DNA from: a bacterium | Lineage (GTDB): Bacteria > JAJVIF01 > JAGGVT01 | Direction: 5' to 3' | Assembly: GCA_021157815.1 (NCBI GenBank) | Contig: JAGGVT010000064.1 | Span: 1-24,253 of the forward strand | Length of the DNA: 24,253 bases | Part shown: in pieces, positions 6,808 to 24,211 of the stretch | How the letters are laid out: the number at the start of each line of letters is the position of its first letter | How positions within the stretch are numbered: position 1 is the stretch's first letter | Notes under the pieces: model-generated | The model's input: the letters and a program-made list of their open reading frames with translations, nothing else | Told to the model about the DNA's origin: nothing | The model's database searches: none | Made by a program: the position numbers and the translations under genes

Positions 6808-7926
6808 TTACTGAAAAGCCTTTAGTTTGAATTTACTTTTTATCTTGCCCTCTTCGTCGTAATCGACAACAAGAAGGTCTCGTTTTTCCTCAAATGGATA
6901 GAATAGTTTAATACTGTCCTTTGTCCGCGTAAAGAAAACATGGTTGAGGTTGTATCCGAGAAAAACCTCTTTTGGCAATTCCAGCGAAAGCAGGTTGAAA
7001 AAGTGGAATTTCTCTTTCATCGACCAATCGAGAATTGACAATCCACGAAGATCAGGTTCGCCTTTGATACCCTCCCTGAATCCAAGCACTGAGCCGTAAA
7101 GACCATCATCCCGGATAAAGCTCTTCCCTTGGAGCGGTTTGAAAAAAGATGGTGAATCCGGAGTTTTAGGAAACCATGGAACCTCCAGTTCCATGTGATT
7201 GATTAGTTTGCCGTCCTTGTCAAGTTCGAGAGCCGAGAAATATTCACCACGCGACCACTCATCGCCTGATACTTTCATATTACCAACCAACAATAATTTT
7301 TCATCCTTCAGCGCGAATAAGTTTCTGCCATAGTAATGCTCCAATCTGCCCCCAATCATGTTTTCAGGAAAGATGTTTTTCAACTCGCGAATTCTGCGAA
7401 GTATGCCTGTATCGTCGAATTTATGCAATTCAAGAATGTTATTCAGAACCCAGATATCTCCTTCAGGTGATACATCAAAATCCTTCAGTTTGAATCCCGG
7501 AGGAAATATCAAAACGCCTTTGTCGCCAAACTCCCTGTCCTGCCTTCCGGTTTTGTCAATACGTACAAGCTGAAGATCAGCGCCCATTATGAAGCCTTCC
7601 TTGCCCGGAAGGAGGACATATAAGTAACCGTCCTGAGAGCAAACAAGTTTCAGAGGGAATGGTTCGCAGCAGAAATTGGGAAGAACCAGCCTGAATATTT
7701 TTCGATTTTCACCGTCAGCCGTAAACGCTTTGAGATGCGGCCTGTCAGTAGCCCAGTGAATCGCGATAACGTAAATGTTGCCGTCATCATCAATCACAAC
7801 ATCCCTAAGAGGATAATCGTCACTTTGCGGAATAATGGTTCCTCTGGCTACTGCGCTTGTGATGAGTAATCCAAGAAGGCTCGCAGCCAGAAGGAATGTA
7901 ATTGTGATTTTCAACGCTGTTTTCAT
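6808..7926 (-). CDS. Exported protein of unknown function, probably a beta-propeller
   Basis: This 372-residue protein has a clear signal peptide (about 1-28: MKTALK, a hydrophobic core, then TSAVARG). The mature part shows repeated short phrases of NHL or six-bladed-propeller style, such as DVVIDDDGNIYVIA, LVCSQDGYLYVLLPG, LKDFDVSPEGDIWVLN and LLVVDYDEEGKIKSKF, spaced roughly as propeller blades. I see no catalytic motif. AAGGA stands 9 nt before the ATG. It lies 17 bp after the acyl-CoA dehydrogenase gene and is probably co-transcribed with it, though the functional link is unclear. It may bind a ligand or act as an extracytoplasmic scaffold. The propeller assignment is from pattern only. 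Confidence 0.7.
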   Translation of the reverse strand: MKTALKITITFLLAASLLGLLITSAVARGTIIPQSDDYPLRDVVIDDDGNIYVIAIHWATDRPHLKAFTADGENRKIFRLVLPNFCCEPFPLKLVCSQDGYLYVLLPGKEGFIMGADLQLVRIDKTGRQDREFGDKGVLIFPPGFKLKDFDVSPEGDIWVLNNILELHKFDDTGILRRIRELKNIFPENMIGGRLEHYYGRNLFALKDEKLLLVGNMKVSGDEWSRGEYFSALELDKDGKLINHMELEVPWFPKTPDSPSFFKPLQGKSFIRDDGLYGSVLGFREGIKGEPDLRGLSILDWSMKEKFHFFNLLSLELPKEVFLGYNLNHVFFTRTKDSIKLFYPFEEKRDLLVVDYDEEGKIKSKFKLKAFQ

Positions 7927-9157: not shown

Positions 9158-9187
9158 AATAAAAAAACCGGCAGGTTATGCCGGTTT
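9158..9187 (-). terminator. Rho-independent terminator of the HtrA-like trio
   Basis: On the minus strand a 9-bp perfect stem (AAACCGGCA with TGCCGGTTT, loop of five) is followed by a run of seven T. It starts 25 bp after the stop of the third protease-like gene and separates the trio from the acyl-CoA dehydrogenase gene. Confidence 0.9.
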
Positions 9188-9212: not shown

Positions 9213-10352
9213 CTATATTGATGCTACCCAACCAAGGTTTGCGTAATCCGTCGCTCTTTCAGAAACACGAATCCTTTTGTAGAAAACCTCGCCATTTCTA
9301 ACTATCGTGATGGCAAAAGTCTCGTCTTCTTCCATAGCAAGAATTAGCTTCTCAAGTTGTTTTTGTGTTTTAAGAAGGATACCGTTAAGCTCAAGAATCA
9401 GGTCACCCTTTCGAATTCCGGAACGTGCCGCGGGTGATGTAGCAGCTACGTCATCAATCAACACACCGACAATTCCGTAAGGCTCATCAGTGTCCGGATT
9501 AACTTCCCGCATCGGTATTCCCAAATATACAGCAAGGCGTTTGTCCAATTTATTGTAGGGGAAAACACCAAACCACGGGTGAAATATTTCTCCACGTTCA
9601 TACAATTGATCGAACATATTCTTCATAAGGTTACTTGGAATTGTGTAGTTCATATCCTCGCTTCCAGAAGCAAGACGATTAACCACAGCAATAACCTCGC
9701 CTTTTCTATTGAAAACGGGACCGCCATAGTTGCCGCGAGTAATTGATGCGTCAATTTCAATAGCGTCTGAAATAAGGACACCATCAAAGTTATGCGGACC
9801 GGCAAGCCTTAAATCCCTGAAGTTGGTAACGAATCCGTAAGTGAGTGTTTTATCAATCCCACCCGCGGGGTCGCCAACAACAACCACAGGATCACCACGA
9901 AGGATATCTTCTGAGTCTCCCCATTGAATTGGAGAGAATTCGATTCCTTCCGCATCAGGGTCATCAATTTTTAAAAGCGCGATATCGAAAAAATCATCAG
10001 TTGCCACGACATCAGCTTCATACTCATCCTCACCAATTGTAACCTTGACTATTTCACTTTCCTCCACCGTTCCAAGGTAAGTCAGGACATAGCCATCTTC
10101 AGTCACGATGAAGCCGGTACCACCAGATGTGAGAATGGTTTTTGTGTAAGCTGAGTATCTACCATAACCTGAGTATGGCAGTTCCACTGATGTAATGCTA
10201 ACCATTGAGTCTTTAACTTTTTCAAAAACCGAGATTGACGGGAAATCACTTCGAATTGCAGCCGGGTCAACCTGTGAAAAAGCTGGAAGGCTAATAGTGA
10301 TTATTGCTGTTGAGATCAGCGCTGAAAGAATAAATCTGTATATGCGCAACAT
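9213..10352 (-). CDS. HtrA-like trypsin-fold/PDZ protein, catalytic His and Ser lost (pseudoprotease)
   Basis: This 379-residue protein has a signal peptide (about 1-27, ending PAFSQ), a trypsin-like domain (about 40-250), the HPWFGV linker typical of HtrA proteins and one PDZ domain (about 286-355). The catalytic machinery is broken. Where DegP-type proteases have TNxHVV it has TYLGTV, so His is replaced by Gly94. Asp123 is kept in FDIALLK. The nucleophile motif GNSGGP is GNYGGP, so Ser is replaced by Tyr209. It should therefore not cut peptide bonds but could still bind peptides or join an HtrA trimer. GGAGGT stands 10 nt before the ATG. It is the last of three tandem paralogues and is followed by a terminator. 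Confidence 0.93.
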   Translation of the reverse strand: MLRIYRFILSALISTAIITISLPAFSQVDPAAIRSDFPSISVFEKVKDSMVSITSVELPYSGYGRYSAYTKTILTSGGTGFIVTEDGYVLTYLGTVEESEIVKVTIGEDEYEADVVATDDFFDIALLKIDDPDAEGIEFSPIQWGDSEDILRGDPVVVVGDPAGGIDKTLTYGFVTNFRDLRLAGPHNFDGVLISDAIEIDASITRGNYGGPVFNRKGEVIAVVNRLASGSEDMNYTIPSNLMKNMFDQLYERGEIFHPWFGVFPYNKLDKRLAVYLGIPMREVNPDTDEPYGIVGVLIDDVAATSPAARSGIRKGDLILELNGILLKTQKQLEKLILAMEEDETFAITIVRNGEVFYKRIRVSERATDYANLGWVASI

Positions 10353-10454
10353 TGATTAAATGACCTCCACCGATAATGGATAATTATCTATGAATCCTGC
10401 TAAATTTTAAATCATTACTAAAATAACACCGTTTTTTAAAGGTAACACTTAATA

Positions 10455-11735
10455 TTAGTAAGTAAGTGTTGCCTGATATGGTTTCGAGTAATTCTTCATT
10501 GAGTAAGTATTAACGCGAATAGTATCGTATCGCACTTTCTTCTCAGCGAGTTCAACAGTAATTGGCGCCAACCCCACACCATTACGTTCAATCATTGCGG
10601 TCACTTTCTGGCCTATTCGTCCGTTGAGGAAATATTTATACAGTTCAAAAACGTTGGAGAAATGAATATTATCGATACTCAGGATTTTGTCACCCTCACG
10701 AATTCCCGCTTTATAAGCCGGACTGTATGGATTTACGTGCTGGACAACCGGATAATCGACTTCGACATCGAACCATAAATCCCACTCATTTGTAATTCCA
10801 AGTGGTGAATCAAAATACGCCCACTTATAGGGAATATTGGATGGATGACAAAGAACACCGAACCATGGAGTAAGTGCGCGACCATACTGGATTATGTCTC
10901 GAGCGCTTCTTTTAAGGAAATTTGTTGGTACACTGAATCCAACATTTTCCAAGCCGCCGTAACCCCATGTGTTTGTGCCGATTGCTTCCGCATTTGCATT
11001 AATGCAAGGTCCACCTGAGTTACCATGGTTAATGGCGGAAGAAACGTGGAAGAGATACTGCACACCGGAACCGTAATACTGGCCATATGCTTCTCGCCCG
11101 GAACCACCACCCATTGAATAGAATGTCCAGGCATGTTCAAAATCCAGGATTTCATCAACCACACCAAGGTTGAAGTTGAAGAAATCAAGCCAGTTCGCAG
11201 ATGAGAAACTTCTGTCACCTGAATCAACATTGCCGGCATCTCCACCTGGGCTGCCAAGTGTGCCGACAACATCACCAATTTTTACTTTGTCGCTGTCGGC
11301 AAGTTTGATAGGGTGAAGGTTTTTAGGATCTGTAACAACTTTTATAATAGCAAGGTCAAGTTGCGGGTCCTCGCCAATAACAATTGCCTTGTGCCGTACA
11401 CCAGTATCCTCATCGCCAAAGAAAGCAACTTCGACAATCTGTGAATTGGCAACAACGTGCTTGTTCGTGATTGCGTGTCCTTCCTTGTCGATAACATAAC
11501 CGCTTCCAGCGCCACCACCCCAGGAGACGTAGTCAAGGTTGAAAATCTGGATCATGCTGGGTGATACTTCCTTGAAGAGTTCAGCGCCACCTTGCTGAAG
11601 ATCCATAAGCAGACGGTCTTCACCCCACTGCTGCGCGTTTATTCTTGTTGAGCTCATACCTGCAAAGCAGAATACCGCAAGCAGTAACGAAAGAAACATC
11701 AATTTGAAAGGTTTTCCTAGAAATATTTTATCCAT
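10455..11735 (-). CDS. HtrA-like serine protease with PDZ domain, triad intact
   Basis: This is the only member of the trio with a complete catalytic triad. Numbered from the ATG at 11735, His93 is in TNKHVV, Asp127 in QLDLAIIKV and Ser240 in HGNSGGP. A signal sequence (about 10-36) suggests action in the periplasm. Between the LGSPGG strand and the Ser loop there are about 75 residues, some 40 more than in DegP, with Gly-rich YSMGGGSGREAYG; this may be a specificity or regulatory insertion. A PWFGV linker and one PDZ domain (about 326-388) follow. A GTG at 11741 is possible, but the GGGGGT site is 8 nt from the ATG and only 2 nt from the GTG, so ATG is preferred. It probably degrades or checks misfolded envelope proteins. 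Confidence 0.94.
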   Translation of the reverse strand: MDKIFLGKPFKLMFLSLLLAVFCFAGMSSTRINAQQWGEDRLLMDLQQGGAELFKEVSPSMIQIFNLDYVSWGGGAGSGYVIDKEGHAITNKHVVANSQIVEVAFFGDEDTGVRHKAIVIGEDPQLDLAIIKVVTDPKNLHPIKLADSDKVKIGDVVGTLGSPGGDAGNVDSGDRSFSSANWLDFFNFNLGVVDEILDFEHAWTFYSMGGGSGREAYGQYYGSGVQYLFHVSSAINHGNSGGPCINANAEAIGTNTWGYGGLENVGFSVPTNFLKRSARDIIQYGRALTPWFGVLCHPSNIPYKWAYFDSPLGITNEWDLWFDVEVDYPVVQHVNPYSPAYKAGIREGDKILSIDNIHFSNVFELYKYFLNGRIGQKVTAMIERNGVGLAPITVELAEKKVRYDTIRVNTYSMKNYSKPYQATLTY

Positions 11736-11804
11736 TTTCACACACCCCCGATGTTGATATGTAATGTTTTATAAATAATGATTCATTCAGTAATTAACGA
11801 ACTT

Positions 11805-13025
11805 CTAGAGATATTTCCTTGCTCTTTCTCGAGCTCGTTCCAGTTCATCTTCTTCATCGGTTTCCTTGACTTCCAATGTGTATTCAGAAGTAACCGAATC
11901 CCAAACATTGAAATCTCTATGGAAGAACTCAATTTCAACAACAGCGCCAATTTTCTTTTTCTCGAATGTATTCATAATGGTTGATACGTCTTCGAGAATC
12001 TCACCATCCCACATGTAGATCACATCGCCTTTAATAAGGCCTGCATCTTCAGCCGGACTATCCGGTTCAACATACGCCACATACAAGCCTTCATCAAAAT
12101 CTATATCCTCCTGTAATTTAAGAGACTCATTGAGTTCTAAAAGTGTAAAACCATAAAAAGGCCTGTGATAAACTCCCTTATCAATAAGGCTGTTACATAC
12201 CTTGGAAATGATGTCAACGGGGATGCCGTAATGGAGTTCCGATGTTTCCCGATAGGGGGTATAGGAACTGACCATGGCAAGAACACGGCCATAGACATCA
12301 ATGATGATACCGCCATCATTGCCTCCGATTTTAGGGAAATTAATCATCATGAATTCACTTTCAGATTGGTCAAGTGAGGCATACTGTCCACGAAGCGCGG
12401 CAACAACGCCAAACGCACCACCAAGAAGGTTCTTGGCGATATAATTGTAGTTTAGAATCATTACCGGTTCGCCGACCTCGATATCGTCAACAGGCCCGAA
12501 AACTACTGGCTGAAGTTCATCCGGATTTGCTCTTTTTAATTTCAAAACGGCAAGACCTGTAGAACCATCGATTCCCACAAAATCGGCCTCAAAGCTATCA
12601 CGGTTATAAAGAGTAACTTTTATGTAATTACCAATCTGTGCTCCTTTTTGCCTTGGACTCAAAGGGCTCATGAAACCGGATGGGAATTGGAGGACATTTC
12701 TCAGATCGGTAATAACGTGTCCTTCACGGTCAAAGATGAATCCGCTTCCGTAGTTGCCCTCTTCATAGATGGTGCGAATGTTGCCGTCGCCATCGCGAAC
12801 ATCACGCGTGAATCGAGTTTCGACACTCACGACACTGAATCGAAGCGCTTCGGCCACATTTCTGAAATGGTCCGAATAGACACGCTTGAATTCTCGTGTG
12901 CTTAGAATTTCCTTCTCACCTTCTCTTGCACCCTGAGCCGGCATTTGAAAGCATGTAAACATTAAGATAATAATCATTACAGGAAATATCTTTCCTGCGG
13001 TTTTCATCAATAGCTGGGTCGTCAA
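11805..13025 (-). CDS. HtrA-like trypsin-fold/PDZ protein, all three triad residues lost (pseudoprotease)
   Basis: This is the first gene of the trio. Numbered from an upstream ATG at 13040, the His site TNxHVV is TDLRNV (Arg114), the Asp site TDLAVLK is TGLAVLK (Gly162) and the Ser site GNSGGP is GNDGGI (Asp242). Fold landmarks remain: GSGFIFDREGHVIT, the strand pattern, the YGIPVDII segment and a PDZ domain (about 315-378) with SPAEDAGLIKGDVI. It has a hydrophobic leader (about 18-36) and a charged C-terminal tail (DEEDELERARERARKY). The start is chosen as TTG at 13025, because GGAGGT lies 8 nt before it; the ATG at 13040 has no ribosome site and the ATG at 13007 is too far. A consensus promoter precedes it. 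Confidence 0.9.
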   Translation of the reverse strand: MTTQLLMKTAGKIFPVMIIILMFTCFQMPAQGAREGEKEILSTREFKRVYSDHFRNVAEALRFSVVSVETRFTRDVRDGDGNIRTIYEEGNYGSGFIFDREGHVITDLRNVLQFPSGFMSPLSPRQKGAQIGNYIKVTLYNRDSFEADFVGIDGSTGLAVLKLKRANPDELQPVVFGPVDDIEVGEPVMILNYNYIAKNLLGGAFGVVAALRGQYASLDQSESEFMMINFPKIGGNDGGIIIDVYGRVLAMVSSYTPYRETSELHYGIPVDIISKVCNSLIDKGVYHRPFYGFTLLELNESLKLQEDIDFDEGLYVAYVEPDSPAEDAGLIKGDVIYMWDGEILEDVSTIMNTFEKKKIGAVVEIEFFHRDFNVWDSVTSEYTLEVKETDEEDELERARERARKYL

Positions 13026-13069
13026 ATCCTCGACCTCCATGCGAATGAAAGTATAAAACCAATAATTTC

Positions 13070-13090
13070 AGGGTAATTTCAGATTACCCT
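13070..13090 (-). promoter_or_regulatory. Hairpin at the 5' end of the HtrA-trio mRNA
   Basis: AGGGTAAT pairs with ATTACCCT (8 bp, loop of five). Given the promoter at 13100-13128, transcription should start near 13093, so the stem begins about three bases into the message. A stem-loop this close to the 5' end commonly protects mRNA from decay, as in E. coli ompA. It is too close to the start for transcription termination and has no T tail. Confidence 0.55.
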
Positions 13091-13099
13091 AAAACAGAT

Positions 13100-13128
13100 A
13101 TTATATTCTATCAAATCAGCCTGGTCAA
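13100..13128 (-). promoter_or_regulatory. Consensus sigma-70 promoter for the HtrA-like trio
   Basis: On the minus strand the -35 TTGACC (13123-13128) and the -10 TATAAT (13100-13105) are exactly 17 bp apart, matching 11 of 12 consensus bases. The site lies in the 163-bp gap after the carbonic-anhydrase-like gene and points at the first pseudoprotease gene. This argues for housekeeping expression rather than purely stress-dependent expression, and for the trio as its own transcription unit. Confidence 0.85.
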
Positions 13129-13202: not shown

Positions 13203-14078
13203 CTATCTTCCACTCAGATAACCCTGTACAATCTCCTGATTTTCATCAAGCATTTCCTTATTAATGCTTTCAAATCTGTACTTCGATGTTATCATCGGCA
13301 ACGACTGTACTATCTTCTGGCTTGTCACGGATAATCCCGCGGGCACAAAACGGCCATCCGGTATTTCCGCATTAATCACAAGCGCTCCTGGTTCTATGAC
13401 ACAATTCATACCGATTTTAGCCCAAAATATTAATGCGCCCATTCCGATAAATGTATTGCTCCCGATATATGCCGGCCCATGTATTTTCACACCCTGAGAA
13501 ACTGTTACCTTATGAGCAATGTAGATTGGATATTCATTATCTCCCACTCTAATCAGTCTCTGCGCCAACTTCTTCCCTTCTCGTCTGGTTGGAAGAGAAT
13601 TTACAATTGTTCCCTCCAGAATAGCTGAGTCGCTACCAATAAATATCGGCTCATCCTCATCTCCCCTTACTGAGGTGAAGGGGGCAATGAAAACGCCGGA
13701 GTTGATAATTACGTTTCCAATCACAAGTCCGCGCGGATGAATATAGGCGCCCGAGTCAACCATTGGCTTTATTCTTGTTGGCGACCATGATGTCGCGATG
13801 TTTGACTCAACAGGCGATGTATCCCGTGATGAAAACGGGGCATGCCTTTCCGTTGAGGATATCGTTGACATGTTTAACATGCCGGAAGACCCCGGTTCTT
13901 TAACATTTACTTCCCTTTTATAAACAGTGGATTCCTCTTCCGGTTTTTCCTCGATAATTTCCTGAGAGACAGGTTGCTCTGTGATGATTTGGCTTTTAAT
14001 TCTTTCACTCTGTTCCAATGATGACAATTTAACCGGACCTGAACCGGAAAACAATTTGCTATCTTTTTTATCGGGCAT
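13203..14078 (-). CDS. Gamma-carbonic-anhydrase-like left-handed beta-helix protein, zinc site incomplete
   Basis: The 291-residue protein has a low-complexity, probably disordered N-terminal part (about 1-95) and a left-handed beta-helix matching the Cam/CamH class of gamma carbonic anhydrases: VIGNVIINSGVFIAPF, SVRGDEDEPIFIG, IHGPAYIG, TFIGMGALIF, IPDGRFVPAG. Against the three zinc histidines of Methanosarcina Cam (81, 117, 122), the first aligns with Asn160 (GTIVNSL) and the second with Gln195 (TVSQGVKIHGP); only the third, His200, remains. Arg and Glu of the RGDE motif are kept. It is thus probably not an active carbonic anhydrase in the usual way and may be structural or bind another ligand. 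An ATG at 14093 is possible, but GAGGT fits the one at 14078. There is no signal peptide. Confidence 0.85.
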   Translation of the reverse strand: MPDKKDSKLFSGSGPVKLSSLEQSERIKSQIITEQPVSQEIIEEKPEEESTVYKREVNVKEPGSSGMLNMSTISSTERHAPFSSRDTSPVESNIATSWSPTRIKPMVDSGAYIHPRGLVIGNVIINSGVFIAPFTSVRGDEDEPIFIGSDSAILEGTIVNSLPTRREGKKLAQRLIRVGDNEYPIYIAHKVTVSQGVKIHGPAYIGSNTFIGMGALIFWAKIGMNCVIEPGALVINAEIPDGRFVPAGLSVTSQKIVQSLPMITSKYRFESINKEMLDENQEIVQGYLSGR

Positions 14079-14154
14079 GATAAAACACCTCATCTTTCCA
14101 AGATGTGAATATTCTATTACATACTCAGGTTTTTAAAAAGGTAAAATATACGAG

Positions 14155-22010: not shown

Positions 22011-22154
22011 ATGAAAACGTGGGAGAAAATATTTTTAACTTTCAGTTTCGCATGGATTGCGATTGTCTATTTCGCGTATTATAAAGGCATCGTTAACGGA
22101 ATTCTTCTGTTTCATCCCAACCTGATTGAGCGAATAAAAGGACTGCTTTCGTGA
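22011..22154 (+). CDS. Small 47-residue membrane protein
   Basis: The ATG at 22011 opens a 47-codon frame with one hydrophobic segment (about residues 7-24, around FSFAWIAIVYFAYY) between charged ends (MKTWEK at the start, ERIKG near the end). Its TGA overlaps the GTG start of the next gene by 4 bp (GTGA), the usual arrangement for translational coupling. An in-frame stop lies 15 bp upstream of the ATG. No good Shine-Dalgarno site is visible, which lowers confidence. It could assist or regulate the membrane enzyme encoded downstream. I do not recognise a family. Confidence 0.55.
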   Translation: MKTWEKIFLTFSFAWIAIVYFAYYKGIVNGILLFHPNLIERIKGLLS

Positions 22155-24211
22155 CATTCCTGTTCGGAATAATCCTGTCATCATGCCTGATTTTTGGTTC
22201 ATACATAATCGGCGCGTTTTTCTATTGCGATAATGATGAGGCAAGCGTTAAACGTTTTGTGATTCGAACCGTTCTGGGGTTGGGAATATTCTCGTACTTC
22301 TCTTTTCTTGTCGGTCTTTTCACAACCAAAGTTCCCATGTTTGTTGTTTTAGGCCTGATTGTTTTTTTTGGATTGATTTACAAATTTGTTATCCGAAAAG
22401 AAAGATTTTCGTTTCGCATTTCGTCACTCGTATCATTATCTATCGTTAGCTGGTTAATCATCGCGGCACTGGCTTTAATTGCGTTTGGGCATTTTCTGAT
22501 TGCGATTTCACCACTGATTACATGGGATGCCGCAACACAGCATTATCTGGTTCCCAAAATCTGGCTTCAGTCTGGAAGGATAGTCGCTATTGACAGAATC
22601 ATTTTCGCGGAGTATCCATCGACGATAGAACTTCTCTACATGATGGGTCTGCAGCTGGGCAGCGAATGGGCGGCGAATATCGTTGGCTGGTCTTTATCCG
22701 TTTTACTCGGGCTTGCAATTTTCAGTTTCACATCTGACAGGATAAATCCTCGCGCGGGATTGATTGCGGCGGTTGTGTTTTTCTCAATGCCGCTTACTAT
22801 TGAGATATTCACCGGTGGATTGATAGATATCGGTTACTCGCTTTTCTGCCTGATGTCATTCTGGATGTACCTCGATTATCGAAAGACTGAAAATAAATCA
22901 CGGCTTATACTTGCTGGATTGTTCGCCGGATGGGCATTAGGCTCAAAACATCTGGCGGTGGAATTTCTAGCGGCTGTTTTTCTGGGCGTTGTGATTTATG
23001 ACTTGTTCAACAAAAAGATAAGTTTCAAAAATTGGATGTCGCACTTCGGGATTTTGTTTGTGTTGGCTTTGGCTGTCGCGCTTCCGTGGTATATAAAGAG
23101 CTACATTCACACCGGTAATCCCATTCACCCATTTTTGCCGGGCCTTTTCTACGGATGGCGGGAAGTCAAGGAGCCAATCAGCGTGCATGCGTGGAGCCGT
23201 CCGGACTACAGCCGAACAATAATTTCGTTTCTCTCATACCCCTGGAAATTAACTACTGATTTTAAGTTCATTGATTTCTGGGTTATGGGAATAAGCCCGT
23301 TGTTTGTCGGCACGCTCCCGCTGTGGTGGTTTTATCGCAAACGATTTCCAAAGCCGTTTTTCCCGCTCATGATTTTGGTCATCGCCGTATTCATGTTTAT
23401 CGCGTATAAAATAGCGCCGTCATCGACACGATACATGCTCCCGATTTTCTGCCTGATGTCTGTGCTGACTGCGGCGTGTCTTGGGTACATAATCGATGAT
23501 TTTAAACGATTCGGGAAAGCGCTCGTGGTGCTGGTTTTGATTGTGCCTTTTGTTTTCAACATTTTCGTAATTGCGAAAAGAGTTCGCGATGTTCTTCCCG
23601 TGCTCACTGGAAAACAGACAATAGAGCAATTGTATCGCGCCAAGTTCGACGGTTACAGCGCAATCGAGTGGATTAACAACAATCTTCCGGATGATGCGGT
23701 TATTCTCACAACCGACCCCAAAGGTTACTTCCTTGAACGTGAGTTTTATATTGGAACCGCGGGAAAGCAGTCGCAGATTCTCCCTCCGTGGTCGGAGAAA
23801 AGCAGTGATGTTGTTTTAAAAGGCTGGCAGGAGTTGGGAATCACGCATCTATTATTTAACCTTTCAAAAAATGTCATGATGAATTCGTATTTTGTATACT
23901 CGGTTACAAAGGGAATCGAGGAGCATGGTGAGCTTATAATGACGGCCCAACAGCTTGCCGAGCTGACAAAAATGGAAACTGAGTATTCATACAAGCCGGA
24001 GGAAATCGCGGAGTTTGGCACGATTACCCAGACACCAACAAAAATAATAAACGGCGAGGTTTATTATCATTTATACAAGGAATGGTGGGAAAAGACTGTG
24101 AGGAGAGATCGTACGCAGTTTATGCTGAATCATTATTTGAATCTGCGTCCGCATTTGAAGGAGATTGAGCGGTTCAGGGGGGCTGTGCTTTATGAGATCG
24201 ATTATAATTAG
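22151..24211 (+). CDS. Multi-spanning membrane protein, probable glycosyltransferase of the ArnT/PMT (GT-C) type
   Basis: This 686-residue protein has many hydrophobic segments through about residue 480, followed by a soluble C-terminal part of some 190 residues. GT-C enzymes use polyprenyl-phosphate sugars and carry an acidic residue in the first large external loop. Here Asp126 in ITWDAATQHYLVPKIWLQSGRI lies in such a loop, followed by a segment with YPSTIELLYMMG. The phrase GLFAGWALGSKHLA is also typical of this broad group. The start is GTG, with AAAGGA 8 nt upstream, overlapping the small gene by 4 bp. The sugar and acceptor are unknown and no cluster of glycan genes is in the window. 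The family assignment is moderately sure, the function less so. Confidence 0.75.
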   Translation: MTFLFGIILSSCLIFGSYIIGAFFYCDNDEASVKRFVIRTVLGLGIFSYFSFLVGLFTTKVPMFVVLGLIVFFGLIYKFVIRKERFSFRISSLVSLSIVSWLIIAALALIAFGHFLIAISPLITWDAATQHYLVPKIWLQSGRIVAIDRIIFAEYPSTIELLYMMGLQLGSEWAANIVGWSLSVLLGLAIFSFTSDRINPRAGLIAAVVFFSMPLTIEIFTGGLIDIGYSLFCLMSFWMYLDYRKTENKSRLILAGLFAGWALGSKHLAVEFLAAVFLGVVIYDLFNKKISFKNWMSHFGILFVLALAVALPWYIKSYIHTGNPIHPFLPGLFYGWREVKEPISVHAWSRPDYSRTIISFLSYPWKLTTDFKFIDFWVMGISPLFVGTLPLWWFYRKRFPKPFFPLMILVIAVFMFIAYKIAPSSTRYMLPIFCLMSVLTAACLGYIIDDFKRFGKALVVLVLIVPFVFNIFVIAKRVRDVLPVLTGKQTIEQLYRAKFDGYSAIEWINNNLPDDAVILTTDPKGYFLEREFYIGTAGKQSQILPPWSEKSSDVVLKGWQELGITHLLFNLSKNVMMNSYFVYSVTKGIEEHGELIMTAQQLAELTKMETEYSYKPEEIAEFGTITQTPTKIINGEVYYHLYKEWWEKTVRRDRTQFMLNHYLNLRPHLKEIERFRGAVLYEIDYN

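Follow-up and report, generated by a model that had tools for sequence, protein, structure and literature searches.

Proteases of the HtrA/Deg family are usually thought of as homo-oligomers. The periplasmic sensor proteases DegS and AlgW, for example, act as active homotrimers, and their PDZ domains bind hydrophobic C-termini. As regards paralogues that work together, the HtrA-type pseudoprotease MamO is needed, non-catalytically, for MamE-dependent proteolysis, and pairs of an active and an inactive HtrA evolved separately in three magnetotactic groups (PMC4794232). The Arabidopsis HtrA paralogues Deg5 and Deg8 form a 1:1 hetero-oligomer (PMC4877387), and in vitro an inactive protomer of HTRA1 restores the activity of a defective partner in a mixed trimer (PMC11252331). 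Catalytic and non-catalytic paralogues also share one protease core in ClpP/ClpR (PMC6508832). Here we analyse three HtrA-like genes, A, B and C, that lie in tandem in a stretch of bacterial DNA of 24,253 nucleotides (contig JAGGVT010000064.1; hereafter the window). The closest precedent of this trio is MamE/MamO. The trio is conserved and under selection well beyond the genome of the window, and no description of it was found in the open-access literature searched.

A, B and C are three intact open reading frames (ORFs) arranged head to tail on the minus strand between positions 9213 and 13040, with the transcription order A, B, C and intergenic gaps of 63 base pairs (bp) between A and B and 102 bp between B and C. 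A preliminary description of the window, whose upper limit for the locus (13025) is a TTG start five codons inside the longest ORF for A (13040), had taken them for exported trypsin-PDZ paralogues, of which only the middle one keeps the catalytic residues. Our results agree with this. All three proteins begin with a hydrophobic leader, match Trypsin_2 (PF13365) at 84.2 (C), 75.9 (B) and 45.0 bits (A; cut-off 27.6) and score above the cut-off for PDZ (PF13180), and they have the HtrA/Deg domain layout, in which a trypsin-like domain is followed by at least one PDZ domain. By alignment, the His-Asp-Ser triad of the family is present in B (H95, D129 and S242), while the same positions are occupied by R114, G162 and D242 in A and by G94, D123 and Y209 in C. 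AlphaFold (AF2) models of A and C show the HtrA fold, with a mean predicted local distance difference test (pLDDT) of 76.5 and 81.6, respectively, and a C-terminal tail at very low confidence in the C model. Deg1, DegQ and DegP gave the best PDB matches to the A model, and Deg1, DegP and DegQ those to the C model; DegS and AlgW also ranked high for both. A and C are thus HtrA homologues by fold that would not be expected to be proteases.

The likeness to MamE/MamO would be that of an active HtrA working with a pseudoprotease paralogue. The trio differs from that system in having two distinct ancient pseudoproteases flanking one active gene. Its proteins in the window lack a TauE-like domain, and the window showed no magnetosome gene. 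Against the NCBIfam models of MamE and MamO (cut-off 800 each), A, B and C score at best 102 and 41.8 bits, respectively. As for the di-histidine metal site of MamE/MamO, no invariant His column was present in the A or C alignments, a lineage-specific site being possible. With DegS and AlgW, which are among the best structural matches of the A and C models, the trio shares the layout of one trypsin-like and one PDZ domain, but those proteins work as active homotrimers, and the best score of A, B and C against the NCBIfam DegS model (cut-off 423) is 98 bits. The scores against the Do family DegP/HtrA model (TIGR02037, cut-off 416 bits) also lie below the cut-off (C 176.6, B 156.7, A 106.3). Deg5 and Deg8 are both treated as proteases and are the products of two genes, not three, in a plastid and not a bacterium; the HTRA1 trimers were made of engineered variants of one human protein and not of natural paralogues; and ClpP/ClpR, with its unrelated ATP-dependent Clp fold, is an analogy of principle only.

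The genome of the window (G000) was set against G001-G003, three genomes of the same class that together with it make up the four sampled from its phylum, and against a wide sampling of other lineages. Two of these, the phylum of G019 (the second phylum) and a third lineage, also carry the trio; their kinship to the window is known only as 'same domain', and we read them as different phyla. The triad criterion of the family separates the genes in every copy. His and Ser are both absent from A (14/14 copies) and C (15/15) in the three lineages, while all 74 comparison HtrAs from the sampled genomes keep both, and B retains every covered triad position in its 18 copies (the His of G234 lies off the contig). 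The residue at the His position of A is, for example, R, S, T, F, I or D, depending on the genome, and that at the Ser position of A and C is D, Q, T, M, Y, E or R. In several genomes the Asp is retained in C, and in the second phylum Glu is frequent at the Ser position of C (GNEGC). Since the replacement residues differ among genomes, the conserved trait is the absence of catalysis and not a new residue.

The preliminary description had suggested selection for a non-catalytic role and had named, among its checks, a search of related genomes and the ratio of nonsynonymous to synonymous substitution rates (dN/dS) of each gene; these two came out in its favour. In the two same-genus pairs that are informative (synonymous divergence, dS, is saturated or very high in G001/G003 and G046/G047), the NG86 dN/dS was 0.091 and 0.077 for A, 0.097 and 0.084 for B, and 0.073 and 0.063 for C. 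A and C are therefore constrained as strongly as the active gene, with no relaxed selection on either, and their reading frames are open in every copy. The relatives, moreover, carry all three genes and not one of them. The order A-B-C was found, on one strand, in all four genomes of the window's class (as A-B-B-C in G002) and in eight of the ten genomes of the second phylum; the C-type gene was not found in G040 and G048 of this phylum, genomes that are 77% and 85% complete. The third lineage has a C-type gene in 3/3 genomes, with complete trios in G094 and G362 and B-C only in G234, whose contig begins inside B so that A is cut off. B is duplicated in tandem in G002, G044 and G046 (Table 1), both copies keeping the triad, and B and C overlap by four bases in G043 and G094. 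For four trio loci a sequence match was found among public records from uncultured bacteria, and one of these records had been labelled Planctomycetota by its depositors. The C gene of G001 (L038:6717-7655, minus strand) has an open frame of 383 codons, in which the first ATG, GTG or TTG gives 312 amino acids only.

A and C are kept under selection, because the same trio occurs in the same order in three distant, uncultured bacterial lineages, and its surroundings differ among them. The trio of G001-G003 has a SPOR or gamma-carbonic-anhydrase-like gene on its upstream side and gpmI on its downstream side; that of the second phylum directly follows a proS-like gene; and GroEL-like and enolase-like genes are found near the trio of the third lineage (G094). 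These three neighbourhoods are unrelated, and therefore the conserved unit is the trio itself.

The reach of the trio was analysed with a C profile. Among 385 sampled genomes, no other genome came near the scores of the three trio lineages: the lowest listed trio member scored 278.8 bits, and the next genome, at 234.3 bits, has an ordinary HtrA with an intact triad. A rule by which scores below 250 bits in a separate scan indicate ordinary HtrAs was rejected, since G094 and G362 scored about 180 bits and yet carry the trio. A single-sequence scan of the genome contigs with A gave no match; for C, an 11-row alignment was too diverse for scanning, which a 5-row alignment allowed. A profiles cannot tell remote A genes apart from ordinary HtrAs, and trios at a greater distance may have been overlooked.

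In a tree of the first two lineages, each of the three genes forms a single clade (support 100/99 for A, 100/98 for B and 99/85 for C), within which the lineages separate. When the third lineage was added, B had a support of 98/94, C of 92/86 and A of no more than 73/20. As each gene forms one clade across lineages, the pseudoproteases must be old and have been passed on together, by descent or by transfer; the trio would either predate the split of the lineages or have passed between them as a block. A common origin of A and C, with one loss of catalysis instead of two, was neither demonstrated nor rejected in the approximately unbiased (AU) test (p = 0.336), and a single clade of A, B and C was borderline (p = 0.042). 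The grouping of A with C was weak in the two-lineage tree (87/73) and absent from the second. G019 also encodes a stand-alone B-like protease (L039:6504-7739, minus strand), with a C-terminus of the same kind as B (EFSL), that groups with B in the tree.

A parallel case was found in several Planctomycetota, in which the gene after an active HtrA encodes an HtrA-like protein that lacks His and Ser. Four of these loci have a second inactive gene (Table 1), with Tyr at the Ser position, while L116, L119, L120 and L121 have the active gene and the first inactive gene only. The Planctomycetota inactive genes form clades of their own in both trees, and tandem active and inactive HtrA genes may be a recurrent theme. 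In L112 the third protein matches PDZ twice, and its C-terminal part has no Pfam match.

Three features of the proteins bear on how they could work. Only B carries an insertion, of about 35 residues, between Asp and Ser: the two are separated by 109-122 residues in B, by 77-86 in A and C and by 73-80 in the comparison HtrAs. The LD activation loop of known HtrA proteases is located in this stretch, and the insertion is for this reason a candidate contact site. The LD loop is described in PMC4877387. The hydrophobic-Gly-hydrophobic loop of the PDZ domain is kept in nearly all copies, those of A and C included, so that the PDZ domains look usable. Finally, the C-terminal residue is hydrophobic in all 18 copies of B, which always end in Ser or Thr plus a hydrophobic residue, and in all 14 complete copies of C (32/32 together), against 14/74 comparison HtrAs; because the sequences are related, this comparison is a lead and not a statistic.

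We favour, as the probable explanation, that the trio is one conserved module for envelope proteolysis in which A and C are non-catalytic partners acting on B. The three exported proteins would meet in the periplasm, where B would be the sole protease and A and C would not cut. A and C could join B in one assembly by way of the HtrA trimer interface or, alternatively, dock on it with PDZ domains that hold the hydrophobic C-terminal tails of B and C, and in this way would set the timing of B activity and which substrates reach B. Gene order, triad states, purifying selection and an ancient inheritance in common are shown by the data; the contact of A and C with B, its stoichiometry and its effect we infer, and the simplest form would be a one-of-each heterotrimer. 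A stricter version, an obligate A:B:C hetero-oligomer that forms one gated machine held by PDZ-tail contacts, seems doubtful to us. The idea of a mixed complex is attractive, and the precedents make it plausible (PMC4794232, PMC11252331, PMC4877387); plausibly the trio works like MamE/MamO or the HTRA1 mixed trimers, while being a member of none of these systems. Several points weigh against this explanation. The link between A, B and C, physical or functional, is a proposal drawn from their sequences. The tandem duplication of B in G002, G044 and G046 fits poorly with a rigid 1:1:1 stoichiometry. No physical contact between MamE and MamO was found (PMC4794232), so activation without contact is also possible. 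Moreover, the tail comparison covers three lineages, without phylogenetic correction.

The alternative that deserves most attention is that A and C have non-catalytic jobs of their own, such as chaperone activity or the binding of a ligand or metal, and share with B no more than their expression under envelope stress. This is unlikely but by no means negligible: it dispenses with an interaction with B that we only infer, MamO, also a pseudoprotease, has a separate role in metal binding (PMC4794232), and the residues replacing the triad vary widely among copies, as expected once the catalytic site is unimportant. On the other hand, A and C always accompany an active B, in a fixed order, in three lineages and among different neighbours, and the lack of any invariant His or Cys column in their alignments makes a shared metal site unlikely. 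It is improbable that A and C serve as receptors or decoys for substrates at a step before B, with PDZ domains binding C-termini (those of B and C included) and no mixed ring. The retained PDZ loop and the tails of B and C are what such a role would use, but the binding of tails by these PDZ domains is itself a reading of the residues, and the tail of C is modelled at very low confidence.

The remaining alternatives turn on the lost triads themselves. If A and C were hydrolases with a different catalytic set, the Asp that C keeps in several genomes and the Glu often found at the Ser position in the second phylum might belong to it; the Ser position, however, takes any of seven residues, the His position is equally unconstrained, and neither alignment has another invariant nucleophile or base, so that we regard this as very improbable. 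The absence of catalytic residues could also mean that A and C arose by duplication of B and are on the way to becoming pseudogenes. Frames that are open throughout, dN/dS values of 0.06-0.09, as low as that of B, ancient single clades across lineages, and close relatives with neither relaxed selection nor frameshifts speak so strongly against decay that we give it hardly any credence.

The preliminary description had also assigned the three genes a promoter and a terminator of their own, and we recovered both as consensus matches, not measured signals (Table 1). The presumed 5' untranslated region, which separates A from the promoter-like site, contains a hairpin of 12-13 bp at 13065-13095 (minus strand). 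Directly upstream of A, positions 13203-14093 (minus strand) encode a gamma-carbonic-anhydrase-like hexapeptide-repeat protein with an N-terminal extension of about 100 residues, which scores 202 bits against NCBIfam carb_anhyd (cut-off 380); similar genes are found upstream of A in G001 and G003. Elsewhere in the window, 6808-7926 (minus strand) encodes an exported protein of 372 amino acids without Pfam match, comparable to proteins of 386-415 amino acids that adjoin the acyl-CoA dehydrogenase gene in G001 and G003, and 22151-24211 (plus strand) encodes a membrane protein with a PMT_2 (mannosyltransferase-like) match.

Table 1. Coordinates of the trio, its signals and catalytic positions in the window, and of related loci in other genomes
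Feature	Position	Strand	Remarks
Gene A, exported HtrA-like pseudoprotease	11805..13040	-	411 amino acids; trypsin-like + one PDZ
Gene B, exported HtrA-like protease, triad intact	10455..11741	-	428 amino acids; C-terminus ...TLTY
Gene C, exported HtrA-like pseudoprotease	9213..10352	-	379 amino acids; C-terminus ...VASI
Sigma-70-like promoter TTGACC-17-TATAAT upstream of A	13100..13128	-	11/12 consensus bases
Intrinsic terminator-like hairpin, 9-bp stem + T run, just 3' of C	9165..9187	-	
A codon at catalytic His position (Arg114)	12699..12701	-	alignment
A codon at catalytic Ser position (Asp242, GNDGG)	12315..12317	-	alignment
B catalytic His95	11457..11459	-	alignment
B catalytic Asp129	11355..11357	-	alignment
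B catalytic Ser242 (GNSGG)	11016..11018	-	alignment + codon read
C codon at catalytic His position (Gly94)	10071..10073	-	alignment
C codon at catalytic Ser position (Tyr209, GNYGG)	9726..9728	-	alignment + codon read
A-B-B-C loci	L036:7182-9983; L074:6934-9292; L076:7905-10319		
Planctomycetota loci, active HtrA then two inactive genes (GAAGG-type, NYGGP-type)	L112:5980-10855; L113:5764-10730; L114:5818-10805; L118:4200-10430		

An active HtrA with two ancient inactive paralogues in a kept order makes it testable whether mixed HtrA complexes have been favoured by natural selection, and what an inactive HtrA subunit does. Active HtrAs paired with inactive ones are known from magnetosomes; the trio extends this pairing to bacteria that show no magnetosome gene in the window, and its many diverged copies can be used for structural and biochemical work.

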